Assembly: GCF_018687475.1 (NCBI RefSeq)
Contig: NZ_CP061292.1
Span: 248,001-312,000, forward strand
Length of the DNA: 64,000 nt
Origin: Polynucleobacter sp. MWH-UH24A
GTDB taxonomy: Bacteria; Pseudomonadota; Gammaproteobacteria; Burkholderiales; Burkholderiaceae
Direction: 5' to 3'
Shown here piece after piece: positions 20,265 through 61,810 of this stretch (position 1 is the stretch's first letter; the number at the start of each line of letters is the position of its first letter). The notes beneath the pieces were generated by a model. The model saw nothing but the letters and a program-made list of their open reading frames with translations, did no database searches and was not told the origin of the DNA. The position numbers and the translations under genes are program-made.

Positions 20265-21173
20265 GTGGTCTTGGCATCTCAAAACGCGATTGATCAGTTT
20301 TGCGATGCCTGTTGGCTCGAAGATGGCCTCTCAAAAAATACGCTAAGTGCCTATCGGCGCGATCTCATTTTATTTGCTACCTGGTTGGGTGAGCAAAAAA
20401 ATGCCAGCGATCTTTATCGGGTCCAGGAGGCAGATCTCACGGCCTACATGGCAGCAAAGCGAAGCGATAAAGCCACCACAGCCAATCGGCGCCTCACGGT
20501 CTTTAAGCGCTTTTATCGCCATGCATTGCGCCTTGGCTATGTTAAAGAAGATCCGTGTGCGAAGTTGCGCGCCGCGAAGCAAGCGCAGCGCTTTCCAAAG
20601 GTCTTGAGTGAGGACCAGGTCATTGCGCTACTCAATGCCCCCAATATTGACGAGCCATTGGGGTTGCGTGATCGCACCATGTTCGAGCTGATGTACGCCA
20701 GTGGCTTACGCGTCTCAGAAATTGTGTCACTCAAAACCGTATCGTTGGGACTCAATGAAGGGGTCGTGCGCGTGGTCAACGGTAAAGGTGGTAAAGAGCG
20801 TATCGTTCCTTTTGGTGGTGAAGCGGGACAGTGGTTGCGTCAATATCTACATGAAGCCCGACCCATCCTCTTAGAGGGAAAAAATTGCCAAGAGGTTTTT
20901 GTGGGGCGCCGCACAGGCGCTGGATTAACCCGTCAAGCATTTTGGTTCATCATCAAACACTATGCGAGTCTGGCTGGCATTCAAGTGGCGCTCTCACCCC
21001 ATACTCTGCGCCATGCGTTTGCTACCCATCTCTTAAACCATGGTGCGGATTTACGGGTTGTACAACTCTTGTTGGGGCATGCCGATATTTCGACCACTCA
21101 AATTTATACCCATGTGGCGCGCGAGCGCTTAAAGAAATTACATGAAATTCATCATCCAAGGGGGTGTAGTTAA
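20265..21173 (+). CDS. xerD: Tyrosine site-specific recombinase XerD
   Basis: A 302-residue recombinase. The N-terminal SAM-like domain (about 8-95) includes GLSKNTLSAYRRDL. The catalytic domain carries the conserved residues: Arg in ASGLRVSEIVSL, Lys in VNGKGGKERIVPFG, His and Arg in PHTLRHAFATHLL, His in LLGHADISTTQIYTH with the Tyr nucleophile. With XerC it resolves chromosome dimers at dif. The start is GTG at 20265, 3 bases after yajQ; a TTG at 20271 is also possible. An AT-rich minus-strand operon begins directly downstream. Confidence 0.93.
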   Translation: MVLASQNAIDQFCDACWLEDGLSKNTLSAYRRDLILFATWLGEQKNASDLYRVQEADLTAYMAAKRSDKATTANRRLTVFKRFYRHALRLGYVKEDPCAKLRAAKQAQRFPKVLSEDQVIALLNAPNIDEPLGLRDRTMFELMYASGLRVSEIVSLKTVSLGLNEGVVRVVNGKGGKERIVPFGGEAGQWLRQYLHEARPILLEGKNCQEVFVGRRTGAGLTRQAFWFIIKHYASLAGIQVALSPHTLRHAFATHLLNHGADLRVVQLLLGHADISTTQIYTHVARERLKKLHEIHHPRGCS

Positions 21174-21205: not shown

Positions 21206-22219
21206 TTACGAATACTGCTGACGAAATTTCTCAGCATCCCAATTCAAAAGATTATTAACCTCTTGCATGCTCAAGGGGTTTAACTCAGAATCAGGGTGTA
21301 TACGCTGAAGTAAATCAAGATAGCAGCGGAGTTGAATTTTTTGAGTCAAACTAAAGGATGATTTATAAAAAACACCTTTGTCTTTAACAAAAATAAGCTG
21401 GGGGGATAGCTTAAGCTTAGTAAAGGCCTTAAATTCTTCGATATTATGAAAAAAAAATGCTTTTGGACCAAGGAAAACTGCGTGATCTGGAAATAAAACC
21501 CAATCATCCTTAAGTCGCTTAAACCACTCAGGATTGATAGCCAACATATTAATTTCATAGTCTTCAGGAGGAAAATATTCATCAAAAAAAGAAGAAATGT
21601 GAGACCGATTTGTAGAAAAATTTATCTTATGCGAAACTGATTGACAAGCTAAGCGAAGAGAAGAAATTAGATCGTTCATATCCATGATTGATGAAGCACC
21701 CAATACCACCCCATGGTTTTGCAAAAAAATACAACGGATATTTTTTTCGTGAATTACAGATGAAATAGTACTCGATAATTCTCCGCCTGGTTGTCGATAT
21801 GGAATCATAATAATTTCTTCACTCATTAATTCTCTAACTCTATTGAATGCTTCATGCGGTTCTCGTAGAACTAAAAAGGAAAGTGCTTCAATAGGGTGGA
21901 TATGAACCACAATAGGGTGAGGCAATAATGCATGAAGAACAGTTTCTATTGATGGTCGAAGCGGTGAATCAATCTTTAATTTTGGGCTAACGAAAAATTT
22001 TTTTTCTAAAATAGATTTCTTTAGATCATAAAGATCAACCGGAACAAAGATCGATTTATTTTTAGCATGTGCTAACCATGTTCCCGATGCTTTAATCCAA
22101 AGCTTATCACCATCTTTCCAAGATACATTTCCTCCGGCACCTTGAACAAGCAAAGGGTTGTTACCAATGGAAACACAAAAAGAAGAAATTTGTTCATGAT
22201 TAATTGGAGGCATATTCAT
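21206..22219 (-). CDS. Class II aldolase/adducin-family protein
   Basis: A 337-residue protein whose first ~220 residues form a class II aldolase domain: QGAGGNVSWKDGDKLWIKASG at about 26-46, Glu92 in SIETVLHAL, zinc histidines H106 and H108 in VVHIHPIEA, and a further QNHGVV at 167-172. Known members cleave or isomerise phosphorylated sugars such as fuculose or rhamnulose phosphate. The N-terminal pattern is closest to the aldolase half of rhamnulose-phosphate aldolase/dehydrogenase proteins. The last ~110 residues match nothing I recognise. It is the last gene of the eight-gene operon and overlaps the HAD gene by 20 bases. The substrate is unknown. Confidence 0.75.
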   Translation of the reverse strand: MNMPPINHEQISSFCVSIGNNPLLVQGAGGNVSWKDGDKLWIKASGTWLAHAKNKSIFVPVDLYDLKKSILEKKFFVSPKLKIDSPLRPSIETVLHALLPHPIVVHIHPIEALSFLVLREPHEAFNRVRELMSEEIIMIPYRQPGGELSSTISSVIHEKNIRCIFLQNHGVVLGASSIMDMNDLISSLRLACQSVSHKINFSTNRSHISSFFDEYFPPEDYEINMLAINPEWFKRLKDDWVLFPDHAVFLGPKAFFFHNIEEFKAFTKLKLSPQLIFVKDKGVFYKSSFSLTQKIQLRCYLDLLQRIHPDSELNPLSMQEVNNLLNWDAEKFRQQYS

Positions 22220-22955
22220 TTAGTGCTTTAAGTAGCCGGCTTAACTCGATAAAACTATTAAAGTGTGCATCAGGTAATGATTCATTGGAACCAATCTCAA
22301 CACCCGAATGAATTTTTTGTAACGTAATGGCACCAATAGCATTTTTGGCACCTAAAATATCATTAATTGAATTATCTCCAATCATCCATATACAATCTCC
22401 ACTAGGATTAATTTTTTTGAGAGCCAATTCAAATATCATTGGATGAGGTTTGTCTAGGCCAACTTCCTCACTTGTTACAATTGCTGTAAAATAACGGTCT
22501 AAGCCGAAATAAAGAAGTTTACGAAACTGAATTTGAGCAGTTAGATCTGTAACAATGGCAGATGGAATTCGCAATATCCTTAAATCATCCAAAAATTCTT
22601 TTACTCCAGGAAATAATTGAGCATTATTTAAAAAGGTTCTCCAATAAGTTTGTTCTAAATCAAGACATAATAAAGGTTGCGAACCTAATCCCATTAATTC
22701 CAACATACGCTGAAAATAAAGTAACCTACTATGTGATGCAGCCGTTTTTTTTAAAGATAATTTAATTTCATTTTTAGCTTGTTTAAAAGTGAAATCAATA
22801 GCAGATTCCTTTACCGAATAATCCTTAAACAATTTTTGTTTGATTGCTTTATAAGCAGATTGATGGGCATGATCATATGCATATAATGTATCATCGAGAT
22901 CGAGTAGAACTGCATCAGGAGCTACAGTAAAGGCTGATGGAAAATTTATTTTCAT
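22200..22955 (-). CDS. HAD-superfamily hydrolase
   Basis: A 251-residue phosphatase-like protein. Motif I is DLDDTLYAYD with the nucleophile Asp19 and acid/base Asp21. Motif II is IVTDLTAQ, motif III is the lysine in VGLDKPHP, and motif IV is IGDNSINDILGAKNAIG. A helical cap sits between motifs I and II. Such enzymes remove phosphate from small sugars or nucleotides. Its start overlaps the upstream stop by one base and its end overlaps the aldolase, so all three are translationally coupled. A role in dephosphorylating a pathway intermediate is inference. Confidence 0.85.
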   Translation of the reverse strand: MKINFPSAFTVAPDAVLLDLDDTLYAYDHAHQSAYKAIKQKLFKDYSVKESAIDFTFKQAKNEIKLSLKKTAASHSRLLYFQRMLELMGLGSQPLLCLDLEQTYWRTFLNNAQLFPGVKEFLDDLRILRIPSAIVTDLTAQIQFRKLLYFGLDRYFTAIVTSEEVGLDKPHPMIFELALKKINPSGDCIWMIGDNSINDILGAKNAIGAITLQKIHSGVEIGSNESLPDAHFNSFIELSRLLKALNEYASN

Positions 22956-25009
22956 CAGATGAACCTCTTAGTTAGAGCCTGCTGCATGAAAGAAATTGTA
23001 GTAATTTGCATTAATCCGAGAACTCCACCATACCATTTTGGCTCAAAATCAAAGAAATCAAAAATGTTTGGACATAAAATTTTTGCAGCCATTGCTATAT
23101 CGTCAGCTTGACAGTCACCATCAATAATAAGAATTACTTCAGAATTTATAGGATTAAGTTCTATTTCTACATGAAGCCCACAAATAGCAACTAAAATTCG
23201 TTTTAATGAAAGTTCATTGAGTCCCTGACGTGAGCGAATAATTAACTTTAAATGAAGTAAATTTGGATCAACTTGTTCATCTAACTCAGATATTTTTGCA
23301 GGTTGAACAGAGAATATAAGATCTGCAAAATGAGCTTGAGGGTGAATAAAACGTGATGAATCGACTCTTCGCTCTTCAAGCTTTTTCATAACATGATCTG
23401 CAGAATAACCTCGTTCTTTAATATCACGCAAAACTTTTAGGTAGCAACGTAATTCTTCATTAATATCTAAATAAATAGAAAGGTCATAACACGAGCGTAG
23501 TAGTGGAAGATATAAAGCATGCAAACCACTGGAGATAATCAAATCTTTACTAGGCAAATTAATTGGCTCACCACTTAAACCTGTTGAATGATCATAATGT
23601 CGGATACGAATAGTTTTTCCATCTATTAGAGAAACCAGATCATTAGTAAAACTTTCCAGATCATTAGCCGAGGGGTTAATGTGGGTCAGCATATTCCACA
23701 TTGGTTGCTTGCGATCCCACAAGTGATAATCATCACCAGAAAGATGGGTAGTCGAGTGCTTACCAAATAAATCAGTAATAATATTTGCGAAAGTATCTTT
23801 ACCAGACCCAGAATCACCAGCTATTCCAATCACAAACGGTTTTCGGCTTAGACGAAAAAAATCATTACGTACAATATTATTTTTCCAAATACGAATGATT
23901 AAAATAATACTTATTGAAACTAGTGCAGTGTAAGCAAAAGAACTTAAATGATTGTATGTCCCAAGACTAATATTAAAATTATTACTCGCTAATAGATGGT
24001 GAATTAATCCAACGTCATAGCTTGATAGAAAGAAACTAATACAAATAATATATAAAATTATAAAAATATTACTAATACTCATTGCAAAGCGATCATTACT
24101 TAGTTGATAACTAATTAATAAGGGAACTACCCAAACAAACCATCCCGGTGATGCAGGTATTAGAAGGACAAAAACTAAAAAAACTATTCCCAAAAAATTA
24201 TAGAATAGTTCAAAATTCACACGTTTAATTTGCCATGCTAAGTAAAGCAACAATAAATATAGCAGTGGAAAAAGGTAAAGCTCATTATCCTTAAGAACTG
24301 GAATACTAAGCTGGTAAATCTTTGTAACTTCAGGATTTGTAAGCACCATTTGGATGCCGGCGATAGAAAAGAGAAAGGGTAGCAGGATGCTTATAAAAGC
24401 TAAAATAAATCCAAATAAAAACTGAGAAAATTTTTGAAAAATTGAACGATTATGTAAGAAGTAAATTAAAAAAAAAGGTAATGTGAGGAACATACTTAAT
24501 TTTGCGGAAATTGCTGCAACTAAAAAAACACCACTAAATATAAATTGATTAATCTTAATCAGATATATAGACAAAATTAAAAAACAGATTGGAATTAAAT
24601 CGTTATAACCGAGAACATATATCGCAATTAAGATAATTGGCGAGAGCCAGTAAATGGCTATCAGCTTATTTCTTTTATTTGAAAATAATTTATCTAGGGT
24701 TAATAATAAAATTAAGTCTGCAAAAATAATAGCTGCACCATACCCATATGAAATTGGAATGAATATAAATTTAGCAAGAATGATCCAGGGCAAAAAAAAG
24801 AGCCACATGGCATAGCCGTAAGGAAATGCTCGATAATCACCTAAACTATTAAGCCAGCTTGCCCAGGGATCTATGGATAGATTCTCGATACTAAATTCAA
24901 AAAAAGGGATGTACCAATCATTAATAGGAGCTGCTGGTATGAAAATAAGAAGCGCAATACGGGTCGCTAGGCCAAACAAAAACAGTGGATTTAAAAGCCA
25001 AATTTTCAT
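22955..25009 (-). CDS. Fusion of a polytopic membrane (GT-C-like) domain and a uridine-kinase-like domain
   Basis: A 684-residue protein. Residues 1-378 hold about ten hydrophobic helices with short charged loops. ASPGWFVWVVPLL near 286-298 resembles the substrate-loop pattern of lipid-linked GT-C glycosyltransferases. Residues 390-600 are a P-loop kinase of the uridine kinase/phosphoribulokinase family: GIAGDSGSGKDT at 395-406, the LSGDDYH segment, HYDHSTG, and an LEERRVDSS-type lid. The last ~80 residues are a small domain I cannot place. I know of no characterised protein with this architecture. It overlaps both neighbours by 1-4 bases. The codon use is strikingly AT-rich. Confidence 0.7.
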   Translation of the reverse strand: MKIWLLNPLFLFGLATRIALLIFIPAAPINDWYIPFFEFSIENLSIDPWASWLNSLGDYRAFPYGYAMWLFFLPWIILAKFIFIPISYGYGAAIIFADLILLLTLDKLFSNKRNKLIAIYWLSPIILIAIYVLGYNDLIPICFLILSIYLIKINQFIFSGVFLVAAISAKLSMFLTLPFFLIYFLHNRSIFQKFSQFLFGFILAFISILLPFLFSIAGIQMVLTNPEVTKIYQLSIPVLKDNELYLFPLLYLLLLYLAWQIKRVNFELFYNFLGIVFLVFVLLIPASPGWFVWVVPLLISYQLSNDRFAMSISNIFIILYIICISFFLSSYDVGLIHHLLASNNFNISLGTYNHLSSFAYTALVSISIILIIRIWKNNIVRNDFFRLSRKPFVIGIAGDSGSGKDTFANIITDLFGKHSTTHLSGDDYHLWDRKQPMWNMLTHINPSANDLESFTNDLVSLIDGKTIRIRHYDHSTGLSGEPINLPSKDLIISSGLHALYLPLLRSCYDLSIYLDINEELRCYLKVLRDIKERGYSADHVMKKLEERRVDSSRFIHPQAHFADLIFSVQPAKISELDEQVDPNLLHLKLIIRSRQGLNELSLKRILVAICGLHVEIELNPINSEVILIIDGDCQADDIAMAAKILCPNIFDFFDFEPKWYGGVLGLMQITTISFMQQALTKRFI

Positions 25010-25611
25010 ATTCCAAAACCTTCAGATTCCCAGCGTTCTGGCTCTTTTGTGCATATAGCGGCTGGTGTAATTCTTTCTTGACGAAGCTCTGAAGCTAGCT
25101 TTGGAATTGCGACATTAGAAATAAAACCTTGTAATTCAGGGGAAACGATACAAAGACGAAAACCAGCAGATTCTAATTGTTCCGCCATAAATCTAGAAAG
25201 TGGAAAATAAGTAAAGTAGTCAACCCATATCCAGTCAATTTGATGTGAAAGAGATAGTGCTGTCTCAATTGATTCAAATTCGGAGACACGCAAGGCGCAA
25301 CGACGTTCGCCTAATTTAGCAAATTTAATTAAAAAAGGAAATGATTGATCTAAAAAAAAGAAATCATTAATTTTGAATTTTCGCATCAGGCAAAGTAGGG
25401 CCTCTTCGAGACCTTCTTCTTTTACATTCAGTATTAGGGTTTGATGCTCGAAATGTTTTAACCAATCCTCCAATTTTTCCCCAGATTTAAGAGGGTCATG
25501 TTGTAAAATTAATTCATTATTGAATGTGCGGATATCAACTTCAACCCCATATTTTTTTGGGGTATTGATGAGTAACTCAATACTATTTCGTCGATGAGCA
25601 ATTATTTTCAT
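25006..25611 (-). CDS. Glycerophosphodiester phosphodiesterase-like TIM-barrel protein
   Basis: A 201-residue protein. The start IIAHRRN carries the His-Arg of the GDPD active site, and GVEVDIRTFNNELILQHDP carries the Glu, Asp and second His expected of that family. The remainder keeps the barrel strand pattern (LILNVKEEG, WIWVDYF, RLCIVSPEL) but is shorter than classical GDPD enzymes (about 240-260). It may hydrolyse a glycerophospho- or related diester bond. No signal peptide is seen, so it is cytoplasmic. It overlaps both neighbours by 4 bases. The specific substrate cannot be told. Confidence 0.65.
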   Translation of the reverse strand: MKIIAHRRNSIELLINTPKKYGVEVDIRTFNNELILQHDPLKSGEKLEDWLKHFEHQTLILNVKEEGLEEALLCLMRKFKINDFFFLDQSFPFLIKFAKLGERRCALRVSEFESIETALSLSHQIDWIWVDYFTYFPLSRFMAEQLESAGFRLCIVSPELQGFISNVAIPKLASELRQERITPAAICTKEPERWESEGFGI

Positions 25612-26306
25612 TGATTAAGAGAACGTCTTAATTTAAAGCTAAATTGAATGGTACGTTTAATAAATTTCCATTTGCCCTGCCAATTAATATTCCAGTGAGA
25701 ATTACCATGGATACGCTTACCAAACTCTACAGGAATGCGATGAATCGTTAGATTTGACTCTTTCGCCTTAAAGTAGACGTAAAGATCCAGTGAGAAATCG
25801 TGAGGTGGCTGAACCCATTTTTCATAAAATGAGCGTGGGAATAAATTGGGTTGAGCATTGATATCCCAAAAAAACCTTCTTAGTAAAAGTATTTCAAAAA
25901 TACTCATGCCAACTGTAAAAAAATTATCTGTAAAGGGTCGATGTTTTCTTTGGCCTTTAACATAAATTAAATTGCCATATCGTTCAAACAAAGGTAACGC
26001 CTTTAAAAGATCTTTCGGGTCTGTTTGTAAATCAGCATGTGTCCATCCGAGCAACTCACCGCGTGCTTCACGAAGCCCCATCAAAATACCGTAACCATAT
26101 CCAAGATTGATCGGAACTCGTATGCTCTTGCACCATCGATACTGGGACATAAGTTTTTCTAAGACTGTTGCACTGTCATCAGTAGAGCCGTTGTCAACTA
26201 AAATAATTTCAATATCACCACGCTCGCCCAAGATTTGGCAACGATCGAGCAATAGAGGTAGATTGGTCCCCTCGTTGTAACAAGGAATAATCAAAGAAAG
26301 TTTCAT
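25608..26306 (-). CDS. Glycosyltransferase family 2, polyprenyl-phosphate sugar synthase type
   Basis: A 232-residue protein from the ATG at 26306; a GTG two codons upstream is also in frame. The GT2 start LSLIIPCYNEGTNLPLLL, VDNGSTDDS, and the DLQTDP metal-binding region (GWTHADLQTDP) are clear. It lacks the C-terminal membrane helices of GtrB, ending in a basic amphipathic stretch (KWKFIKRTIQFSFKLRRSLNQ). Next to a GtrA gene this is the expected enzyme charging undecaprenyl phosphate with a sugar. It starts 9 bases after gtrA. Confidence 0.8.
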   Translation of the reverse strand: MKLSLIIPCYNEGTNLPLLLDRCQILGERGDIEIILVDNGSTDDSATVLEKLMSQYRWCKSIRVPINLGYGYGILMGLREARGELLGWTHADLQTDPKDLLKALPLFERYGNLIYVKGQRKHRPFTDNFFTVGMSIFEILLLRRFFWDINAQPNLFPRSFYEKWVQPPHDFSLDLYVYFKAKESNLTIHRIPVEFGKRIHGNSHWNINWQGKWKFIKRTIQFSFKLRRSLNQ

Positions 26307-26315
26307 ATACACATT

Positions 26316-26702
26316 CTAAAGGTGTTTAAAAACATACCATTTCATACCAACATAATTACTAATTGCTGAAAACAGTGTAGCAAGCATAAAGGCAAAAAAA
26401 ATTGAGCCTACCTCAAATTTAAAAAGAATAAGCAGAGCATCATTACTCAGTACATTAATTACCAAACCAATTGCATAAACTAGTACGAAGCGAAAGCTGC
26501 TTCCGGTTCGCATTTTTGGGTTTTGGAAGGTCCAGAACCGATTGGCAAAATATGCAAATAAAGTTCCGAAGATAAATCCTATTGCCTTTGAGGAGCTAGT
26601 TCCTAAAAAAGTGAGCAAGAGCATGGATTGGTAGATAGCAAAATCTATACCTGTCGCCAAAAGGCCAACAAGTAAGAAAGTTAGCACTTCTCGAATGGGC
26701 AT
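26316..26702 (-). CDS. GtrA-like membrane protein
   Basis: A 128-residue protein with four transmembrane helices. The family pattern is visible: FLLVGLLATGIDFAIYQSML in helix 1, SKAIGFIFGTLFAYFANRFWTF in helix 2, then two more. GtrA proteins are thought to flip undecaprenyl-phosphate-linked sugars across the inner membrane. It overlaps the preceding nucleotidyltransferase stop by one base and is followed by its expected GT2 partner. Confidence 0.9.
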   Translation of the reverse strand: MPIREVLTFLLVGLLATGIDFAIYQSMLLLTFLGTSSSKAIGFIFGTLFAYFANRFWTFQNPKMRTGSSFRFVLVYAIGLVINVLSNDALLILFKFEVGSIFFAFMLATLFSAISNYVGMKWYVFKHL

Positions 26703-28369
26703 TACTGGAGCGGTATAGCAGGTAAGATTGCTTGATAGTGGGATGTAAGTTCGGCTACTTTATGACTTGGAATGTGTGCATCGAGTTTGAGCTCATATGG
26801 GTGTAGAGCCCATTTGCTGAAGCAGGATTGCCAATACTCAAAGGTCCTAAGTTCATTGGGCGTACCCCAAGAAATATATGCATCTATCTCAAAAACAACG
26901 CAACGTAGACCCATAGCAATGGCATCATTTATACAGGAGTCTAAGTAAAATTCGCCATTAATAAGTCCATTACGTTCAATAAGATGAGTTATTGCTCTCT
27001 GAGCATCACCTGCACGTTTAAAGGTAAATGTCCCGATCACAATGGGATCGCTACGGGGGTTGGCGAGAGGTTGTTTTACAGAAATTTTCTGGATCAGGCC
27101 CATATCATCTACATCAATCCAACCAAACATGTGCGGATGTCGAACAGCGTTCGGATGGCCGCGAACTCCCCAGACAATCACATCGATCATTGGATCGTTT
27201 AACATGGAAAGATATTTTTCTGCATTAAAGAGAACGCCGTTATCACAGGCACTAAACAGTATTGGCGAGTGTGCATTAATACGCTTTGCATCACACAGCG
27301 CCTTCAGGCCGATTTCAGCGGTACAAGCTTGTCCTTGAGTAATATTATCAACCATTGGAATGAGTGCGTTCGGGTATTTCCTTAGTAACTCCTCGCAAAC
27401 TGATTCAACACCAGGCATATCAGATCGTAAAATAAAACAGCGTTCTTGAGTATTTGGCAGGTCGTTGATAGCCTGAATAGCCATCGACTGACCGGAGACT
27501 GAGATTAGAGGTTTGGTATGGGCATAGCCCTCATCTGAAAATCGTTTTCCAAGGCCGGCTATCGGAATTATCGTAGCACCACCAACCTCATTTTTTTTAA
27601 ATGGAGATATTAAACGCCTAAAAACATAAGACCAATGTTGATACTCAACTAAGTCCTCAGGTGTGCCCCATTGCATGAAGTGCTGAATAGGATAAACCGC
27701 TACATGTTTTCCTTGGCCAATAAGAAGATTGTAAGAAAGACTTACATAAAATTCACCACCAATACTTAAATCATTAGCAATCACATTTTTAAAAGCGTCA
27801 TGCATAAGCTGTGCGCTTGAAAAGTAATAAGTTCCAGTTGAAGCATATTCATCCATTCGATTTAAGGTGAATGGTTTTTTTTCTTGAATGGCGCTAACCC
27901 AACCTGCATTTTCTTTAAGGTATGCATAATTGGTAGTTCCAAGGCAATGAGGATGAAAACCTTTATAGGCAGGAATAGCACCGTCACATTGAGAGGTAAT
28001 TACAAAATTTTTAAAATGCGCCCAATCCCAATAACAACTAAAGTCACAATAATTCACAATTACAGGTTCATTATGGTTAAGTTGATCAATCACCTGCATG
28101 ACGGCATATATTGGGCCTAATTTATGAGGTGCTATGCCGATAATTTTCCCGGTTGGGCAGAGCGATAAGAGAGTATCACGCATTTGAAAATTAGAGTTGT
28201 CAAGATGATCCTGATTGCAAATAAAAAGGAAATTTGTCTCACCCGGAAAAAGATCGACAACATAAGAAATAACAGGACGACCATCAACATTAATAAGTGG
28301 CTTCGGAACTAAATAGCCTGATTGCCGAAAACGCTCACCAAATCCCGACATAGGAATTACAATTTGCAT
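26702..28369 (-). CDS. Tandem (two-domain) sugar nucleotidyltransferase-like protein
   Basis: A 555-residue protein made of two consecutive nucleotidyltransferase domains. Domain 1 (1-245) starts IVIPMSGFGERFRQSGYLVPKP. Domain 2 (about 258-530) starts TIIPIAGLGKRFSDEGYAHTKP. Both carry the G-x-G-x-R-F...KP nucleotide-binding loop, and both end with a similar INGEFY/IGGEFYVSL and ISWGTP/MQWGTPEDL segment, so they arose by duplication. Such domains form NDP-sugars or NDP-polyols from NTP and a sugar phosphate. Whether both sites are active is unknown. The gene begins 2 bases after the upstream gene. Confidence 0.8.
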   Translation of the reverse strand: MQIVIPMSGFGERFRQSGYLVPKPLINVDGRPVISYVVDLFPGETNFLFICNQDHLDNSNFQMRDTLLSLCPTGKIIGIAPHKLGPIYAVMQVIDQLNHNEPVIVNYCDFSCYWDWAHFKNFVITSQCDGAIPAYKGFHPHCLGTTNYAYLKENAGWVSAIQEKKPFTLNRMDEYASTGTYYFSSAQLMHDAFKNVIANDLSIGGEFYVSLSYNLLIGQGKHVAVYPIQHFMQWGTPEDLVEYQHWSYVFRRLISPFKKNEVGGATIIPIAGLGKRFSDEGYAHTKPLISVSGQSMAIQAINDLPNTQERCFILRSDMPGVESVCEELLRKYPNALIPMVDNITQGQACTAEIGLKALCDAKRINAHSPILFSACDNGVLFNAEKYLSMLNDPMIDVIVWGVRGHPNAVRHPHMFGWIDVDDMGLIQKISVKQPLANPRSDPIVIGTFTFKRAGDAQRAITHLIERNGLINGEFYLDSCINDAIAMGLRCVVFEIDAYISWGTPNELRTFEYWQSCFSKWALHPYELKLDAHIPSHKVAELTSHYQAILPAIPLQ

Positions 28370-28371
28370 GA

Positions 28372-30183
28372 TTATTTTAACTCCATAGTTGGTAATTGAA
28401 TCTCAAAGGTCTGTAAAAATAACGAATTTGAACCATTTTTCGTGCGATTGCTCAAGTCAATTTCTATAGTAGATCTTTGAATTAGTATGTCAGAAATTTT
28501 TTTTACCTGAATAGTTTTATTTTGGATATTTTCATGTGGAAAACAACTAATTAAAACTTTTTGGAAATAATCAGTCAAAGAAATGGGTCCACCATCATAA
28601 AAATTTTTTACTAATGGCGCACCCTGATTATTTAAAAGAACTCTTTTACTATACCAAAAAATTATGAATTTTTTTGGGAGATTGTTACTGGATAAATAAG
28701 GATAATCCTTGCAAATTGGATTAGGTCTATAACGAAAAATTGTTATATTTGATAGCTCAGTTAAAAAAAAAGGTTCTACATCAAATTCATCTACAAGAAT
28801 TTCAGTAGCTCCACTATTTTGAAAAAGAAGTGGAATATTGAAAACTTGAATTAAATCTTTGCGCTTTTCTTCGAAAGATGAAAACATGAGGATCGAGAAG
28901 CAAGCATAAATCAGGGTTGTTGGGATCAAAAAGATATAAAATATGAGATTATTAATTTTAGCTTTAATAAAAATTAAACCATATCCTATTAATATCAAAA
29001 TTATTGGTAGAAAGAATAAAAAATGTCTTGTGGGAGAATAAGAAAGTTTTCCTAAAAAAATCAATGTAAAGTAAAGTAAAATATAAAAGAATATAGTGTA
29101 GAAATATATTTTATAGTCATACTGATTACGTTTCTGATACAAATAAAAAAAACCTAAAAGACAAACTAATAAGAGGCTCGCTCCAAAAAAATTTGCTGCT
29201 TGCATTGACTCAAATTCAATAGCACTTAAAATAGAGTAAAAATTATAACTAGATTCATAAAATACAAGTTTAAAGAAAGTACTAATTCTATTAAAAAAAT
29301 CTGTTGATGTGATGATGAATTCGGCGTTGGGCCCGGCGTTCCAATTAATTCCGGAGTTGTAGCGAATAATAATTATCGCACCCGTTAACCCCAAGCTGAT
29401 GATAAAAAAGGCCCATAGAAAAAAATATTTTTTTATTCTCTCATTAAAATTTTGCCTGTTTAAATGAATTAAGGCTGTTGCAAGCAAACCAGCAGATACA
29501 AGGAATATTGCTTGATATTGCATAGTTACAGATAAAGCAAGAATTAATCCGTTATAAAAAAGCTGTTTTTTTGAAAAGGAGAAAAAATTTTGAGTTCGCA
29601 CAATACCGTAAATAGCACAAACATTTGAAAGAATACCAATAGCATAAGAATGCATTTGTGATGCCATAATTCGTTGTTCGAGGGAGAATGCAGCAATTAG
29701 AATCAAGATAAAGGGAATTAACTTTTCATCCTTTAAGCCGGGCAATTTCTTTTGGATAAATACGAGGAAAAGTATAATTCCTAATATGTGGAAGATAAAA
29801 GAAGGAAGTCTGCCCTGTAATTTTGTTTCAATGTAGCTATATGAATTTTCTGGTTTTAAAAACGCCTGTGTAAACCAAAACTGAAATGGTGCATATGTAA
29901 AATTTCTCGGAATTACTGTATAAATGTAGGCATAATAATAAAGCTTGCAAAAACGTTCTCTATTTTCACCCGTTATTTTATAGATGACTATACCAGCAGG
30001 CTTGGACATATTGCTAGAACAAGCCCTATTAAAAAAATCTTCTTTGGTAAATCTATATGCTACTGATATGTCATCAATGTGAGTAAAGTGATTTTGAATA
30101 AGCCTATAAGTCTGGCTCAAAGAAATGAAGATGAAAATACTAAAAAAAACTTTTGTCACTAGATATAGATTTTTTTGAAACAT
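28372..30183 (-). CDS. Polytopic membrane protein, probable GT-C-type glycosyltransferase
   Basis: A 603-residue protein with about eleven transmembrane helices in residues 10-440 and a soluble C-terminal domain of about 150 residues. The first extracytoplasmic loop holds HIDDISVAYRF, an acidic pair placed where GT-C enzymes keep their catalytic aspartate. GRLPSFIFHILGI follows, as in GT39/ArnT-type proteins. It probably transfers a sugar from a polyprenyl-phosphate carrier on the periplasmic side. It is the first gene of the operon. The promoter lies in the 104-base AT-rich gap shared with plsY. The family assignment is by pattern only. Confidence 0.6.
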   Translation of the reverse strand: MFQKNLYLVTKVFFSIFIFISLSQTYRLIQNHFTHIDDISVAYRFTKEDFFNRACSSNMSKPAGIVIYKITGENRERFCKLYYYAYIYTVIPRNFTYAPFQFWFTQAFLKPENSYSYIETKLQGRLPSFIFHILGIILFLVFIQKKLPGLKDEKLIPFILILIAAFSLEQRIMASQMHSYAIGILSNVCAIYGIVRTQNFFSFSKKQLFYNGLILALSVTMQYQAIFLVSAGLLATALIHLNRQNFNERIKKYFFLWAFFIISLGLTGAIIIIRYNSGINWNAGPNAEFIITSTDFFNRISTFFKLVFYESSYNFYSILSAIEFESMQAANFFGASLLLVCLLGFFYLYQKRNQYDYKIYFYTIFFYILLYFTLIFLGKLSYSPTRHFLFFLPIILILIGYGLIFIKAKINNLIFYIFLIPTTLIYACFSILMFSSFEEKRKDLIQVFNIPLLFQNSGATEILVDEFDVEPFFLTELSNITIFRYRPNPICKDYPYLSSNNLPKKFIIFWYSKRVLLNNQGAPLVKNFYDGGPISLTDYFQKVLISCFPHENIQNKTIQVKKISDILIQRSTIEIDLSNRTKNGSNSLFLQTFEIQLPTMELK

Positions 30184-30287: not shown

Positions 30288-30908
30288 ATGGAACCAATAA
30301 TAATAATAGTTTTTTTATTGATTGTAATTGCCTATTTTTTAGGTTCAATCTCTTTTGCTGTAATAGTAAGTAAGATGATGGGTTTGCCGGACCCCTATAC
30401 CCATGGTTCTAAAAATCCAGGGGCGACCAATGTCTTGCGCACTGGCAATAAAGTGGCCGCTGCGCTCACCTTGATTGGCGATGCTGCCAAAGGGTGGTTG
30501 GCAGTGACCCTTGCACGCGAAGTCTTGGGGGGGCCCAGCCAGGAAAGCGTCAACATTCTCTTGGGGCTGGTAGCGATCGCTGTCTTTATCGGACATCTCT
30601 ATCCGATCTTTCATCGCTTTAAAGGGGGTAAGGGTGTGGCCACAGCCGCAGGGATCTTATTTGCGATTAATTGGGTCTTGGGCTTGGCCACCTTAGGAAC
30701 CTGGCTCATTGTGGCAGTCTTTATGCGCTATTCGTCTTTAGCCGCCTTATGTGCCGCAGTCTTTGCACCGATTTATTTCACCTTTCTCTTTGGCGCACAG
30801 CCCATGGGGTTAGCCATTGTCGCGATGAGTGCACTTCTCATTTATCGGCATCGCAGTAATATCCGAAATCTTCTTAATGGCACGGAAACGCGCCTGAGTA
30901 AAAAGTAG
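30288..30908 (+). CDS. plsY: Glycerol-3-phosphate acyltransferase PlsY
   Basis: A 206-residue inner-membrane enzyme that acylates glycerol 3-phosphate from acyl-phosphate, the first step of phospholipid synthesis. The three family motifs are seen: GSISFAV with [16 protein letters not shown], the lysine-rich [12 protein letters not shown], and the late [10 protein letters not shown]. It has about five membrane helices. The first ~25 codons are very AT-rich with three consecutive ATA codons, like the neighbouring operon, while the rest looks native. A composition boundary therefore seems to fall inside the gene. Confidence 0.96.
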
Positions 30909-49535: not shown

Positions 49536-50669
49536 ATGAGCACCAATCAACCTAAAGTAGCTTTAATTACTGGTATTACTGGCCAAGACGGCTCCTACCT
49601 GGCTGAATTTTTATTGGAAAAGGGCTATGTGGTGCATGGCATTAAACGCCGCGCCTCACTCTTTAATACCGAGCGTATTGATCACCTCTACGAAGACCCG
49701 CACGTGAATCATCGCCATTTGATCTTGCACTATGGGGATTTGACGGACACCAGCAACTTGGTGCGCATCATTCAGGAGTGCCAACCCGATGAAATCTACA
49801 ACCTAGGGGCGCAAAGCCATGTGGCTGTCTCCTTTGAGTCGCCGGAGTATACGGCGGACGTGGATGCGATTGGAGCACTGCGGATGTTGGAGGCCATTCG
49901 CATCTTAGGATTGGAAAAGAAAACCCGCTTTTACCAAGCCTCGACTTCAGAGCTCTATGGCTTAGTGCAAGAGATCCCCCAAAAAGAAACGACCCCGTTC
50001 TATCCGAGAAGCCCCTACGCAGTTGCTAAGCTCTATGCCTATTGGATTACGGTGAACTACCGAGAAGCCTATGGCATGTATGCGTGCAATGGCATTCTCT
50101 TTAACCATGAATCCAAGCGCCGCGGTGAAACCTTTGTGACACGCAAGGTCACGCGCGGTTTGGCCAACATTGCTCAGGGTCTGGAGCAGTGCCTCTACAT
50201 GGGCAATATTGATGCGTTACGCGATTGGGGTCACGCCATGGATTATGTGCGTATGCAGTGGTTGATGCTCCAACAAGACAAGCCAGAAGATTTTGTGATT
50301 GCCACGGGGGTGCAATATACCGTGCGTGAGTTCATTCAAAAGAGTGCCAATGAGCTAGGAATCACTCTGAAATTTGAAGGCAAAGCTGAAAGCGAGAAGG
50401 CCATTGTAGCGAAGATTGAAGGGAACAAGGCGCCTGCTTTAAAGGTGGGCGATGTAATCGTACAAATTGATCCGCATTACTACCGCCCCACCGAAGTCGA
50501 GACCCTCTTGGGGGATCCCTCTAAAGCCAAAGAAAAGCTGGGTTGGGTGCCTGAGATTACGCTTGATCAAATGATCGAAGAGATGGTCGCCCACGATCTG
50601 GAAAAAGCAAAGCAACATGCATTACTAAAACAACACGGCTATGACGTTGCGGTTGGTAAAGAAAAGTAA
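49536..50669 (+). CDS. gmd: GDP-mannose 4,6-dehydratase
   Basis: A 377-residue enzyme producing GDP-4-keto-6-deoxymannose. [47 protein letters not shown] and [16 protein letters not shown] are all in place. One difference: the usual NHESPRRGE reads NHESKRRGE here. The C-terminal insertion before [11 protein letters not shown] is typical of proteobacterial GMD. It is followed by fcl 39 bases later, forming manC-gmd-fcl. Confidence 0.98.
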
Positions 50670-50708
50670 TCACTTGTAAAACTAATCAAACCTTATAGAG
50701 AGGCTTGC

Positions 50709-51680
50709 TTGTCTAACGATCGTGATCCAAAAATTTATATTGCAGGCCATCGGGGCATGGTGGGGTCTGCGATTGTGCGGGAGTTGGCGCGCAAAGGCTA
50801 TACCAATTTGGTGTATCGCACTCATCAGGAACTCGACCTCACCAATCAAGCAGCCGTCCAACACTTTTTTGAATCTGAAAAGCCTGATCAGGTGTACTTG
50901 GCGGCAGCAATAGTTGGGGGAATTCATGCGAACAATACCTATCCTGCAGAGTTTATTTACGACAATTTGATGGTGCAAAATAATGTCATCCATCAAGCCT
51001 TTCGAAGTGGCGTCAAAAAACTCCTATTCTTAGGTTCCAGTTGCATTTATCCAAAGTTAGCGTCTCAACCGATGGCGGAGGACGCACTCTTGACCGGAAA
51101 ATTAGAGCCTACCAATGAGCCCTATGCGATTGCCAAGATTGCCGGTATCAAAATGTGCGAAAGCTATAACCGGCAATATGGCGAGAGTCATGGGGTGGAC
51201 TATCGTTCCGTAATGCCCACCAATCTGTATGGACCAGGTGATAACTACCACCCCGAAAATAGCCATGTGATTCCGGCGCTGGTGCGACGTTTTCATGAGG
51301 CTAAACGTCACAATCAATCCAAGGTAGTCATTTGGGGAACCGGGACTCCTAGGCGCGAATTTTTATACGTGGATGACATGGCAAAAGCCTGCGTATTTGT
51401 AATGAATTTACCGAAAGTGCAGTACGATCAAGTGACTAGTCCAATGCAGCAGCATCTTAACGTTGGTTTTGGTAGTGATGTCACGATTGCAGAGTTAGCC
51501 CACTTGATCGCCAAGGTAACTGGATATGCTGGCGAGATTGAGTTTGATTCCACAAAGCCAGATGGTGCTCCACGAAAACTAATGAATTCATCAACACTTC
51601 AGAAGCTGGGTTGGCAACCCCATGTCGATTTAGAGTCTGGGCTATCAATGACCTATCAGGAATTTGTGCAACTCAGCTGA
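50709..51680 (+). CDS. fcl: GDP-L-fucose synthase
   Basis: A 323-residue epimerase/reductase from a TTG start at 50709. [17 protein letters not shown] is the NADPH motif, [14 protein letters not shown] and the catalytic [15 protein letters not shown] follow, and [20 protein letters not shown] is the family block. It converts the GMD product to GDP-L-fucose, the donor for the two fucosyltransferase-type genes at 39058-41117. Confidence 0.97.
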
Positions 51681-52690
51681 TTACAAGTCGCCACCTTCGT
51701 TGATCAATTTCCTCCAGTAATGCATCGTTAGTTTGTCGTAATTAAACATTTTGTTTTTAAGATTCAATTTAGCTTGTGCTAAAAATTCTGGGATTAGTTG
51801 ATCCCAAGATTCAACTTCAATCACGTGCAAGTCTTGAAAAAGCTCGCTGATATGAGATTTCTTAACTATGGGAATGCAGCCAAGAATTAGAGCTTCCCAG
51901 GTATGAAAGGAATCAATCTCTGCTCCATGGGGAATTAAGACAAATTGATAACCCGATTGCTCTTCCCAGGTTTTGGCTGAAGGTAAGGGCTTGGGTTGAA
52001 CATAGCAAAGCGATCAATTGATCATGTCATAGCAGGATTGCCGATTGGTTCGATCAAGTAAGAAATACCCGTTGCAAAAGACGAGGGGCAGTCGATCCTC
52101 GCACTTTTGCGCTTGCTTTACAAAGGTTTGGATTTGCAATTCTTGGAGTGTGGGCAGAATAAAGCCGCCACCCCATTGCAAGGGATCAAGCCACAAGTTA
52201 TATAAATTGATTCCGATGGGAATAGCACTTAACTTGGGCGAATCGTGACCCTTATTTTGGGCTTACCACCGCACCCGATGTGGATGGTCAAGAATTAAAT
52301 CCAAATCACTACCAAGGGTTGCTCTACTAATTGTCGTATCGTTATCGCCGCTCACTAAAATGAATGGCCGTTGAATCTGCGGAAGAACTACTTGTGAGAA
52401 GTAAATACGCCATTTGGATTGAATATAATTGGCAGCAAATTAACCAGATGGTTTGCTATTGGAGTTGATTCGATTAGCGATGCGATCTACATAAGTTGTG
52501 TCCATCTGAGCAATAATTGGATCGTGGGGTGAAGATCACAGGCAAACAGAATTGACCAACTATTAACAATTTGGGCGTTCAGTATCCCAAAGTCAAATAC
52601 ATCTTGCAGTAGGATTTTGCTAGTCGTTTTGCGACGGTCAAAACGCTCGAGGAAAATTCCGAGCCAGCGGTAAATGAAACGACCGAACAT
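51681..52690 (-). pseudogene. Broken glycosyltransferase gene (exostosin/GT47-like), one frameshift and three stops
   Basis: Read on the minus strand from an ATG at 52690 (MFGRFIYRWLGIFLERFD), the frame changes once at about 52506-52540. It then continues in one frame to the TAA at 51681, interrupted by TAA at 52440-52442, TAA at 52263-52265 and TGA at 52014-52016. Pieces such as RPFILVSGDNDTTISRATLG, NKGHDSPKLSAIPIGINLYN, LIPHGAEIDSFHTWEALILG and CIPIVKKSHISELFQDL show a glycosyltransferase of about 335 residues. The HGAEIDSFHTWEALILGCIPIV block is exostosin-like. It lies between fcl and the wzy-like gene and is clearly dead. Confidence 0.8.
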
Positions 52691-52777
52691 AGGTAAATAA
52701 AGGTAATTTAATGGTAACTTATGCTAGTGTTTAAAAAGATAGCAACTCTATTGCGGATATTTAACTTAGGATAAATT

Positions 52778-54193
52778 TTGAATCAGCCGACAGACAAATT
52801 ACAGAGCCCTTCGATAGATAATCTAAGGTGGGTTCTGATCATCTTAAGTTCAATCCTATTGGGAATTTGGGCAGTTAAAGAGACGATTGCCCTTCGTAAT
52901 ATTCTTTTAGTTGTTGGGACGCTTTTATCGCTTTATTACATCGCCCTTGAATTTCGCTATGAAAAACTAAAGGAAGATTTATCTCTTTGGAAGCTTCTAC
53001 CACTGATCCTAATTGCCTGCAGTTTTCTTTGGGTCATTGTTCATTATTTCTTTTTTTCAGTTGATCCAATTGCGCAACTTGATGAGCTAAAAAGCACTTG
53101 GTTAAGAGCACTCTTGGCATTCATTGTGGGCCTGGGAGCTGGGCTAGCTTTACGCAATTACCCAAACCGCCTCAATCTGCTCTGGTTGGGTATATTGCTT
53201 GCCTTCTGCGTTCTGTATTACCAATATATTCCAAGAGCGCTAGCGCAAAACCAATTACTAGTTCCAGACTACGATCACTATTTATTCCATTTAAAGTTTA
53301 ATGCCGTTCTAGCGGGCATGATATTCGTTGCAGGTATTGATGGTGCCCTTTTGGATCATTTTCGTGCAATCCATTATCAATGGAGTCATTTGAAGCTTTG
53401 GTATTTTCTTTATTGGTTGGTTGGTACCAGTATGGCGTTGTGGGCATTTGTATTTATTGTAAATGCTCGAAATGGCATTGGCTTATCAATAATTTTGTAC
53501 AGCTTTTGGTTCATTTGTGTATTGATTTTCTTCATTCAAAGTCAGATGAGACGGCCTAATGTAAAAAGTCTTTTAGCGCTTTTATTTGCCGCTATCATTT
53601 TATGTCTTGTCGTGTATTTTGCGTTTTTGCAAACAAATATTAATAGTGGTTGGAATACTATTCTCAAGGATGCAAAAATTGCAGTTCAAATTGAACGATA
53701 CCCACATTGGCAAAATCCTGCCATGGGCCTTCCCCAAGGAGAGGATGGGCACATTCCAGCAGATGCTAATTATGGGAGAATAGCTTGGGCTGTAGCCGGT
53801 TTGAGTAAAATTTTTGAAAATTGGTACGGTGTTGGTACGCTGGCCTACCCCTTGGGAAAACACCCTAACCCCCCCGTAAATATGCCGCTTGGTGAAAATG
53901 ACCCTGGAATCGCCACCCATAGCGGTTGGATAGAATTAGGTTTAGCATTTGGTTTTCCAATTTTAGCCTTAATTTTTTCAGTATTGTTGCTGAGCTTCAT
54001 AGAGGCTACTCGCAATGCCTATCCAGCGAGAATGACAGTGCTGGGTTTGGTAGTCTTGATTTTTTCTCTATATACCGTTGGCGAGGTAGCAATCCAACAT
54101 GGTATCGAAATTTTGTATTACCTTTTGGCCTTCATTTCTGGCTTAATTTTTGTAAAACCAACGCAAGCTCCCATTAATAACTTACAGCCATAG
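52778..54193 (+). CDS. O-antigen polymerase/ligase-family membrane protein (Wzy/WaaL)
   Basis: A 471-residue protein with a TTG start at 52778 and about eleven transmembrane helices. The large periplasmic loop (about 290-385) ends in GIATHSGWIELGLAFGFPIL, matching the H-x-x-x-x-x-x-x-x-G motif of the Wzy_C/O-antigen ligase family. The loop also contains PQGEDGHIPADANYGRIAWAV. It either polymerises the repeat unit or ligates it to the core. The Wzz-like gene directly after it favours polymerase, but sequence alone cannot separate the two. Confidence 0.8.
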   Translation: MNQPTDKLQSPSIDNLRWVLIILSSILLGIWAVKETIALRNILLVVGTLLSLYYIALEFRYEKLKEDLSLWKLLPLILIACSFLWVIVHYFFFSVDPIAQLDELKSTWLRALLAFIVGLGAGLALRNYPNRLNLLWLGILLAFCVLYYQYIPRALAQNQLLVPDYDHYLFHLKFNAVLAGMIFVAGIDGALLDHFRAIHYQWSHLKLWYFLYWLVGTSMALWAFVFIVNARNGIGLSIILYSFWFICVLIFFIQSQMRRPNVKSLLALLFAAIILCLVVYFAFLQTNINSGWNTILKDAKIAVQIERYPHWQNPAMGLPQGEDGHIPADANYGRIAWAVAGLSKIFENWYGVGTLAYPLGKHPNPPVNMPLGENDPGIATHSGWIELGLAFGFPILALIFSVLLLSFIEATRNAYPARMTVLGLVVLIFSLYTVGEVAIQHGIEILYYLLAFISGLIFVKPTQAPINNLQP

Positions 54194-54242
54194 ATACCAT
54201 TTATAATCTTCTAATATTTTCCATTAAAGCAAAAGGATGTGG

Positions 54243-55415
54243 GTGAACAATCATTTCAACGCAAACGCACCGAGTCAAGTTGAAACTGAGATTTCACTCG
54301 TTGATATTTTTAAATTTATTCAAGAGACTTGGAAACTACTTCTTGGAGCTGGAATTGTAGGAGCGTTTCTGGGTCTGGGCGGCTCCTTAGCCTTTCCTAA
54401 ATACACTGCGGGAATAATCTTGCAAAACAATGGTAGTTTCGACATTCGTTCCTGGCGCTCCATGGAAAACCTTTTTCCCATTTTAGCGGCTGAGATGCTT
54501 AATAGGAAGGTAGTGCCTGAAAATCAAGTCGCTATCTTCAAAAGAATCAGTAGTCCCACTTGGTTTAAACAAAACGTTCGCGTTAACTATTTATTAAGTA
54601 AAACTGATGGCAAGGAATTGCCGGTCTCAAGTAAAAATCTCGAAAGCGTTTCGGATACGATCCAATCTTTTGTCATTACTTCAACCGCTTCATCCGAGGC
54701 AAAAGCGCTCAACGAAGCTAGTGAAGTGACTCGGTTTATTAGCAATGGTGCGACCTACATCGCCATTAAGGATCTATTATTAGGTTTCGAGAGAAAGTCC
54801 GTTCTAGATCAAGCTTCTGTTCAGGCACAGATCTCGGCTACCGAGATCGAGATCGCCTACTTGAGCGAGCGTGCCAAGAACCTGGAGTTATTGCAAAAGA
54901 GCTATCCCAACTCCACCAGCGTCATCCAGCAACTGGTCGACCCCAAGGACTCAGGTGCGAAGTATCTGCCGCTGACCACCCAAATTATTGCGATCAAAAG
55001 CGACATCATCGCAAAAAATCAGGCCCTTAAGCATCTAAATGACGAGCTCAGTGAAATCAAAATCTATCAGGCCTTCTTAGATGAGATATCACCGCAATTA
55101 ACCAACCGCTTCGACGGCATCGCTATGCTCAAGATCCTCATGGCTAGCGAAGAAAACCTGCGTGCTAAGTCTGCGCCTGAGGACATCAAGGCGTTCAAAG
55201 TCCTTGATGGTATCCAACTCCAATTAAAAATCATCAAGGTGAAATTTGGCAATAGCCTGTATGTTAATAATTCCTCATCTGTTAATAAGTCCGGTAATAC
55301 TTTGAAGAACATTGTTGGGGGATCTTTCATTACTGGCTTTTTGATGCTTGCGTTTCTATTGGGCAATAGAGCCTTAAGAGCGCTGGAAAATCTGCTACCA
55401 ACGGCTAAAGTTTAA
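54243..55415 (+). CDS. Wzz-like chain-length determinant protein
   Basis: About 390 residues. GTG at 54243 is preferred over the ATG at 54237 because the AAAAGGA ribosome site overlaps that ATG and sits 5 bases before the GTG. A membrane helix near residues 30-52 (LLLGAGIVGAFLGLGG) is followed by FPKYTAGIILQN, as in Wzz. A long coiled periplasmic region with IEIAYLSERAKNLELL and a second helix near 355-375 (GGSFITGFLMLAFLLG) complete the two-helix topology. It sets the modal length of the polysaccharide. It follows the Wzy-like gene by 49 bases. Confidence 0.75.
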   Translation: MNNHFNANAPSQVETEISLVDIFKFIQETWKLLLGAGIVGAFLGLGGSLAFPKYTAGIILQNNGSFDIRSWRSMENLFPILAAEMLNRKVVPENQVAIFKRISSPTWFKQNVRVNYLLSKTDGKELPVSSKNLESVSDTIQSFVITSTASSEAKALNEASEVTRFISNGATYIAIKDLLLGFERKSVLDQASVQAQISATEIEIAYLSERAKNLELLQKSYPNSTSVIQQLVDPKDSGAKYLPLTTQIIAIKSDIIAKNQALKHLNDELSEIKIYQAFLDEISPQLTNRFDGIAMLKILMASEENLRAKSAPEDIKAFKVLDGIQLQLKIIKVKFGNSLYVNNSSSVNKSGNTLKNIVGGSFITGFLMLAFLLGNRALRALENLLPTAKV

Positions 55416-55650
55416 GGCTTTTCCCCATTTTAAAATTAATAATGAGTGGTAAATTGAGTCGTGATTCTTTAATAATGGCGACTTGATTTGATGGTACGAC
55501 AGGGTGTAACATACATTCCGCCCCAGGTCTTCATGCTTACGTGTGGCCTACAAGGGTACAAACTGCAAAAGAGGCTGTCCACTCAATGAACAAATTATAG
55601 TTTCTGATATTATTTAATTAATTGGATTAAGCCTTGAGCGAGAAAAGTCT
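55416..55650. other. Non-coding stretch after the Wzz-like gene
   Basis: About 235 bases with no convincing gene, terminator or repeat. Short open frames here look like remnants but I cannot assign them. It forms the leader of the diverged regulator that follows. Confidence 0.4.
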
Positions 55651-56205
55651 ATGCCCACCGCCGACGGCAATCACTATATTCATCTTCAACCCCTGAGCCT
55701 GATTGGGGCTTGTCCCATCATGATCCAGCACCAACTAGCCAATGCTTTAAGCATGAGTCCGGGAAAGATTAATTGCAGCCTTAAAATCGGAAAGGAAAAG
55801 GGCCTCGTAAAGTGGGATAGCTTTATCCAAAACGTCAACAAGCAGGCGTGCCCGCTTATCCCGACCCCCTCCCAAGGTGCAGTCTACAAACTTAACACCT
55901 TCTTCTTGCAGTGTAAAGAGACCAAATACATTTCAACGGTACTAATTATGGCGAGTGTCTTGGTTTTGATACATATTCGCCTGGGCAGATTATCGCCTAG
56001 GCGAAGAGCGAAGAGAACATCCCATTCGAAGGAATGGTCTCAATCCCTTGAGCGGTCGGTTTGTCGTCAGCGACCCAAAGGCAGGGGAAGAGCGCTGCGA
56101 AGAAATTTGAATTTCCAGGGGTGCGGTGTTACCACATCGGGGATTGAGTATCGGCAAACTCATTACCGCTCTTTATCGATATCAGAAATTAATGGTTTCA
56201 ATTAA
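55651..56205 (+). pseudogene. Diverged EPS-associated MarR-family regulator with a run-on C-terminus (probably decaying)
   Basis: The first ~95 residues follow the pattern of the short EPS-associated MarR-type regulators: IQHQLANALSMSPGKINCSL, then EKGLVKWDSFIQNVNKQ, TPSQGAVYKLNTFFLQCKE. In good copies this reads roughly SQRELA..LG.SLGK.NYCLKAL..KGLVK..NFK.N.NK..Y.YLLTP.G...K..LT..FLKRK. Many consensus positions are altered. After about residue 95 the frame runs on for ~90 residues of arginine-rich, non-conserved sequence to 56205, as if the normal stop had been lost by frameshift. Such regulators sit in exopolysaccharide loci. A functional but divergent regulator is possible. Confidence 0.5.
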
Positions 56206-57898: not shown

Positions 57899-57899
57899 A

Positions 57900-58724: not shown

Positions 58725-58749
58725 TACTTAAATTATTCAAGAATTGAAA

Positions 58750-61804: not shown

Positions 61805-61810
61805 GATACT

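Follow-up and report, generated by a model that had tools for sequence, protein, structure and literature searches.

What does the AT-rich block of eight genes at positions 21206..30183 of a Polynucleobacter sp. MWH-UH24A contig produce, and do its genes form one system? The window that we analyzed is a stretch of 64,000 nucleotides (positions 248,001 to 312,000 of NZ_CP061292.1), and the block within it consists of eight open reading frames, named A to H here, which all lie on the minus strand and are packed together: neighbours overlap by 1, 4 or 20 bases or are 2-3 bases apart. The initial annotation had described a same-strand, AT-rich eight-gene block between xerD and plsY, and both the map of open reading frames and the GC content (34.5% against 47-48% in the surroundings) agree with that description. 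Our answer, to which we give slightly less than an even chance, is that a mobile module starts from ribulose 5-phosphate (Ru5P), converts it into a donor sugar of its own and attaches this sugar to a surface glycan in the periplasm.

The question of unity was addressed by comparing loci. GTDB genomes were scanned with two peptide patterns of G, the tandem nucleotidyltransferase gene, and the best 80 of 151 loci were used; since these loci were chosen by G alone, all co-occurrence counts are conditional on G. A locus was considered untruncated when at least 21 kb of sequence was available, and a gene was scored as present when it had a match anywhere in the locus. Two pairs of loci share a genome (L042 and L043, and apparently L022 and L095). 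All five core genes (A, B, C, D and G) were present in 55 of the 56 untruncated loci, and their co-occurrence is therefore not due to chance; the scattered homologues that would have spoken against the initial annotation were not what the comparison returned. At the blastp cut used, E was found in 51/56 and F in 35/56 untruncated loci, and tblastn recovered F in some of the others. The usual order is G-F-E-D-C-B-A, with A downstream of G in 37 and upstream in 19 of the 56. Thus, seven genes (A-G) form a conserved, patchily distributed module. The initial annotation had treated all eight genes as one system, which holds for these seven; H falls outside the conserved core, as the window's own DNA gave its only match over 60% of its length.

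We next consider the starting point of the proposed pathway, which lies in C (22955..25009). In this protein, a GT-C membrane glycosyltransferase domain (about residues 1-385) is fused to a phosphoribulokinase (PRK)-type domain (about residues 388-684), so the earlier label "uridine-kinase-like" has to be replaced. To our knowledge, the roles of phosphoribulokinase lie in CO2 fixation and in archaeal pathways that involve RuBisCO. In the M. hungatei enzyme (MhPRK), the Ru5P-phosphate site is described as Arg59, Arg62, Tyr98 and His100, with His55, Lys151 and Arg154 as further Ru5P- or ATP-binding residues; the same account calls these residues highly conserved except Arg62, which is not general in PRKs (PMC5241800). 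The kinase part of C has a P-loop kinase fold and retains Ru5P-phosphate-binding residues; R433, Y472, H474, H429, K525 and R528 match MhPRK Arg59, Tyr98, His100, His55, Lys151 and Arg154 with identical spacing. Of the 71 complete kinase parts, 63 keep all ten residues that were checked (67 if K525R, found in four loci and scored here as intact, is accepted).

A natural comparison is offered by genomes that encode RuBisCO. The kinase was degenerate in 4/7 genomes with a true RuBisCO and in 0/64 without one (Fisher p 3.6e-5, phylogeny ignored; n = 71). The count covers the genomes in which the kinase part was complete and RuBisCO had been searched for; L023, L045 and L085, whose kinase parts are incomplete, and L039, in which C was not detected, do not enter it. 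RuBisCO-family matches of about 40-225 bits (L018, L058, L066, L067, L088 and L093) were not scored as true RuBisCO. Outside the count, a contig (L123) of the RuBisCO-bearing L045 genome carries a kinase with K525T and the other residues kept. The four degenerate cases are two Nitrosomonas, a Nitrosospira and a Prochlorococcus. Conservation of the kinase part had dropped to or below the level of the membrane part in three of these four, whereas the kinase part was the better conserved in the 14 other rows compared; in the fourth, L034, the kinase part remains well conserved overall despite its lost residues. All four genomes contain a separate open reading frame of 301-318 aa that matches the kinase part and that we read as the putative Calvin-cycle PRK, and their B and A proteins retain the catalytic positions checked. 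The simplest reading would be that the Calvin-cycle PRK makes the fused kinase dispensable, both enzymes producing ribulose 1,5-bisphosphate (RuBP). Because the kinase decays in RuBisCO genomes only and Ru5P-phosphate-binding residues are kept, the product of the C kinase domain is probably RuBP, and the first step would be the conversion of Ru5P to RuBP, for which sequence, fold and the RuBisCO comparison all argue.

The HAD phosphatase B (22200..22955) would then act on RuBP. Its nearest NCBIfam model is the haloarchaeal RuBP 5-phosphatase NF053830 (161.7 bits for the window protein, followed by 104.5 for the next model); NF053830 matches 29/29 members of the B family, and the ranking of models covers the window protein only. 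By family, B may remove the 5-phosphate to give ribulose 1-phosphate (Ru1P). The third enzyme, A (21206..22219), is a class II aldolase (PF00596, Pfam 64 bits) with a C-terminal extension of about 140 aa, and is a candidate ribulose-1-phosphate aldolase/epimerase. RhaD-type aldolase/SDR models of NCBIfam match 29/29 members of its family, MtnB and FucA_Meth 22/29 each, RU1PAldHalo 8/29 and L-ribulose-5-phosphate 4-epimerase 5/29. Eight zinc and phosphate-pocket positions, whose roles we assume from FucA, are retained in 74 of 75 sequences.

In haloarchaea, a HAD enzyme has been shown to convert RuBP to Ru1P, which a FucA-type aldolase then cleaves to dihydroxyacetone phosphate (DHAP) and glycolaldehyde (PMC9700705). 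Our module shares with this non-carboxylating pentose bisphosphate pathway the RuBP-phosphatase-type HAD adjoining a FucA-type aldolase gene; as outlined in that paper, however, ribose-1,5-bisphosphate isomerase supplies the haloarchaeal RuBP and the purpose is to degrade nucleosides, whereas our case combines a PRK-type domain with a glycan module. From RuBP onward the order of reactions is the same (PMC9700705), and small phosphodiesters would be fitting substrates for a protein with the GDPD fold of D. On this view, Ru5P could simply be cleaved to DHAP and glycolaldehyde by the kinase, HAD and aldolase, and what reaches the surface would be a small fragment derived from one of these, for instance a phosphate made from glycerol or glycolaldehyde, and no pentulose. 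We consider this unlikely, as GT2, GtrA and GT-C proteins belong to sugar-transferring families and Pfam and NCBIfam revealed no reductase or dehydrogenase in the block (H being without a family assignment). The latter result also bears on the product foreseen by the initial annotation, a sugar or polyol phosphate: the sugar-making enzymes are there, and the polyol part finds no backing. In addition, A starts at most 1.6 kb upstream of G in 17/56 untruncated loci and an aldolase lies near a tandem nucleotidyltransferase in two cyanophages, which suggests that A feeds G.

Class II aldolases can take several aldehydes, as Hx-FucA is reported to do (PMC9700705), and A extends C-terminally past its Pfam domain. 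Therefore, A might instead build a longer or branched sugar of six or more carbons from DHAP or another ketose phosphate, with the kinase acting on that ketose and not on Ru5P. The retained Ru5P-phosphate-binding residues and the confinement of kinase decay to RuBisCO genomes make this, in our view, improbable as well. Under the proposed Ru5P route, A would produce the final ketose 1-phosphate, for example L-xylulose 1-phosphate, by aldol cleavage and re-addition or by C4 epimerization.

How such a ketose phosphate could be activated is suggested by G and D. G (26702..28369) contains two tandem nucleotidyltransferase domains (PF12804/PF00483), whose halves form separate clades with motif residues invariant in both. 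D (25006..25611) is a small GDPD-fold phosphodiesterase-like protein. No Pfam family, the GDPD model included, scored above the cut-off for it, but its AlphaFold2 model (predicted local distance difference test 95.5) matched GDPD in Foldseek with an E value of 1.8e-8, ranks 1-18 being all GDPD entries, and database records name its orthologues as PI-PLC/GDPD family; the earlier "GDPD-like" label is thus confirmed. The two domains of G together with D may generate an anomerically activated nucleotide sugar. Two nucleotidyltransferase domains and a phosphodiesterase fit no pathway that we can name, and a shift of the ketose phosphate from C1 to the anomeric C2 would account for them. A specific version, which we regard as doubtful, has RuBP as a committed intermediate of surface-glycan synthesis and leads from Ru5P via RuBP and Ru1P to a ketopentose donor such as L-xylulofuranosyl phosphoundecaprenol: one nucleotidyltransferase would form a nucleoside-diphosphate-1-ketose, D would convert this through a 1,2-cyclic phosphate into the 2-phosphate, and C2 would be activated by the other nucleotidyltransferase. 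In the GDP-heptose route of HddA, GmhB and HddC, a kinase adds one phosphate, a HAD enzyme removes the other and a nucleotidyltransferase activates the sugar. The kinase-HAD-nucleotidyltransferase logic of our module is alike, whereas the kinase family differs and the aldolase, the GDPD-fold protein and the second nucleotidyltransferase are extra.

The final steps would take place at the membrane. E (25608..26312) is a GT2 protein of the polyprenyl-phosphate sugar synthase type (PF00535, 85.8 bits), with profile matches to chondroitin synthase (73 bits), DPMS 5mlz (67), ArnC 9hwj (64) and also sll0501, and F (26316..26702) is a GtrA/DPMS transmembrane protein (PF04138, 62.2 bits), a proposed flippase. 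By family, E may load the sugar onto undecaprenyl phosphate and F may flip it. The GT-C domain of C, which supplies the transferase of a three-component glycosylation system, would then transfer the sugar to the glycan together with the variable eighth protein, here H (28372..30183). H is a polytopic protein of 603 aa with about 9 hydrophobic segments, without a Pfam match or a PDB sequence match, and among the loci no match covers more than 60% of its length beyond the window's own DNA; we consider it a candidate for a variable acceptor-specific transferase. In 49 of 79 loci, a polytopic protein of 400 aa or more lies nearby, as judged by a hydropathy rule that likely includes some ordinary upstream transporters. 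At the family level, the GtrA/GT2/GT-C trio with adjoining sugar-making enzymes recognized by the initial annotation is upheld, and its labels for GtrA, GT2, the tandem nucleotidyltransferase, HAD and the class II aldolase agree with Pfam, NCBIfam and profile matches.

Three-component systems for pentofuranoses, which according to Kelly et al. 2024 use a polyprenyl-linked donor, a flippase, a periplasmic GT-C and a HAD phosphatase (PMC11127046), raise the possibility of an aldopentofuranose donor (ribose, arabinose or xylose). That work describes systems that start from phosphoribosyl pyrophosphate, employ a polyprenyl phosphoribose synthase and have a flippase of the MATE type (PMC11127046); our module, in contrast, has a PRK-type kinase, a RuBP-phosphatase-like HAD, an aldolase, a tandem nucleotidyltransferase, a GDPD-fold protein, GtrA and GT2. 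Pfam and NCBIfam recognized no phosphoribosyltransferase, polyprenyl phosphoribose synthase, MATE flippase or aldose-ketose isomerase among the eight proteins (H again without an assignment), and the aldolase and two nucleotidyltransferase domains would be superfluous. We therefore find an aldopentofuranose very unlikely.

Notwithstanding, several observations weigh against the proposal of a donor made from Ru5P. C carries a proline at the position of MhPRK Arg62, and its kinase scores below the cut-off of NCBIfam PRK07429 (194.5 versus 236 bits), which is why we call the domain PRK-type and not PRK proper. The kinase is intact in three RuBisCO genomes, and three of the four degenerate cases belong to the Nitrosomonadaceae, leaving about two independent events in a comparison whose p-value ignores phylogeny. 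B misses the cut-off of NF053830 by a wide margin (161.7 versus 330 bits). A scores higher with rhamnulose-1-phosphate-type aldolase/SDR models than with the haloarchaeal Ru1P aldolase, and cleavage by A to DHAP and glycolaldehyde would yield no sugar donor. Furthermore, the phosphate of a ketose 1-phosphate does not sit on the anomeric carbon, so the third and fourth steps would need a phosphate migration; these steps past Ru1P, like the identity of the sugar, are our inference. The top profile match of E is chondroitin synthase, and no E was recognized in four Roseomonas or Pseudoroseomonas loci.

The distribution of the module is that of a horizontally mobile, rare and patchy element, which we term seroconversion-type. 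The hosts among the 80 loci include Yersinia, Erwinia, Pseudomonas, Massilia, Nitrosomonas, Lysobacter, Roseomonas, Acidobacteria, Nitrospira and Prochlorococcus; the untruncated loci come from Proteobacteria and Acidobacteria, with shorter loci adding Nitrospira and Prochlorococcus. Of 398 sampled Pseudomonadota, 5 had C, and 3 of 150 relatives had it at full length; both figures include the window's own genome. Among 25 Yersinia species genomes, C occurred only in the one where it had first been found. Complete seven-gene copies were found on plasmids of E. coli, Hirschia and Azospirillum, and the E. coli copy, on a 33-kb plasmid (L101:4986-17325), is flanked by one frameshifted and one intact IS26. 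In Polynucleobacter necessarius PPGSP2 (L023:13669-15641), C is split over two frames and the matches of its neighbours are uninterrupted.

In the window, the block is flanked by xerD (20265-21173) and plsY (30288-30908), both on the plus strand. Its GC content is 0.345, compared with 0.482 (positions 1-21000) and 0.471 (30288-52000), and the GC content at third codon positions is 0.19-0.34 for each block gene and 0.51 for xerD and plsY. The spacing between xerD and plsY, taken between alignment ends and thus slightly overestimating the true gap, is 41-139 bases in 19 of 23 same-genus genomes (the window's own excluded) and 0.8-1.4 kb in three others (L140, L144 and L150); in the remaining one, the 1.5 kb examined did not contain xerD. 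Because the two genes nearly adjoin in these 19 congeners and the GC content contrasts, an insertion between xerD and plsY is the best reading of the block. The three wider spacings suggest that this junction may be an insertion hot spot, possibly targeted by other inserts too. About 20 kb from the module, a polysaccharide cluster (49536-63663; names by eye from translations) contains gmd- and fcl-like genes, a Wzz-like protein, a KdsC-like HAD, a nucleotidyltransferase-kinase fusion and rfbF- and rfbG-like genes.

Among known systems, the GtrA-GtrB-Gtr* O-antigen glucosylation of Shigella and Salmonella, as presented in PMC11127046, has in common with our module a GtrA-type proposed flippase, a GT2 polyprenyl-phosphate synthase and a GT-C. 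Our module also shows signs of mobility and has a polytopic neighbour that varies; it differs in carrying its own sugar-making enzymes, a GT-C fused to a kinase and enzymes beyond the trio. The proposed loading, flipping and transfer steps are shared with the Gtr and the pentofuranose systems; the sugar-making half differs from both, and the donor pathway is possibly new. The initial annotation knew of no described system with this gene set, and our text searches of open-licence PMC papers found no description either: no paper contained all five terms of one search or even three of the five of another, and two papers sharing three of four terms look unrelated. If the proposal is true, RuBP would enter cell-surface chemistry through the fusion of a PRK-type domain to a glycosyltransferase of the periplasmic type, and a mobile cassette would provide surface variation across several phyla. 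The gene set could then be used to predict and test ketopentose side chains, and, in the version with a phosphate shift to C2, would show how pentuloses can be activated, among them xylulose of the kind reported in a few bacterial polysaccharides (PMC8707391). Yersinia enterocolitica O:10 carries an L-xylulose side chain, and sections 11 and 13 of the gene-cluster paper assign no xylulose-making genes (PMC11380512). We treat this link to xylulose as a lead and not as a test.

Two other gene arrangements resemble parts of the module. A cassette of two nucleotidyltransferases, a GDPD-like protein, a HAD and a cupin, in varying order, recurs in four other genomes of the same genus, within their surface-polysaccharide regions (L097:8905-11974, L098:3181-6249, L099:286-3344 and L100:8772-11822; HAD and cupin named by eye) and on a Pseudomonas alcaligenes plasmid (L108:5998-9154; names from the record). 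It shares the theme of paired nucleotidyltransferases, GDPD and HAD, without PRK or aldolase. In the cyanophages S-SM2 and Bellamy (L102:7001-10309 and L109:6001-9303), a relative of the tandem nucleotidyltransferase with 39-40% identity lies beside a GT61 enzyme and an aldolase.

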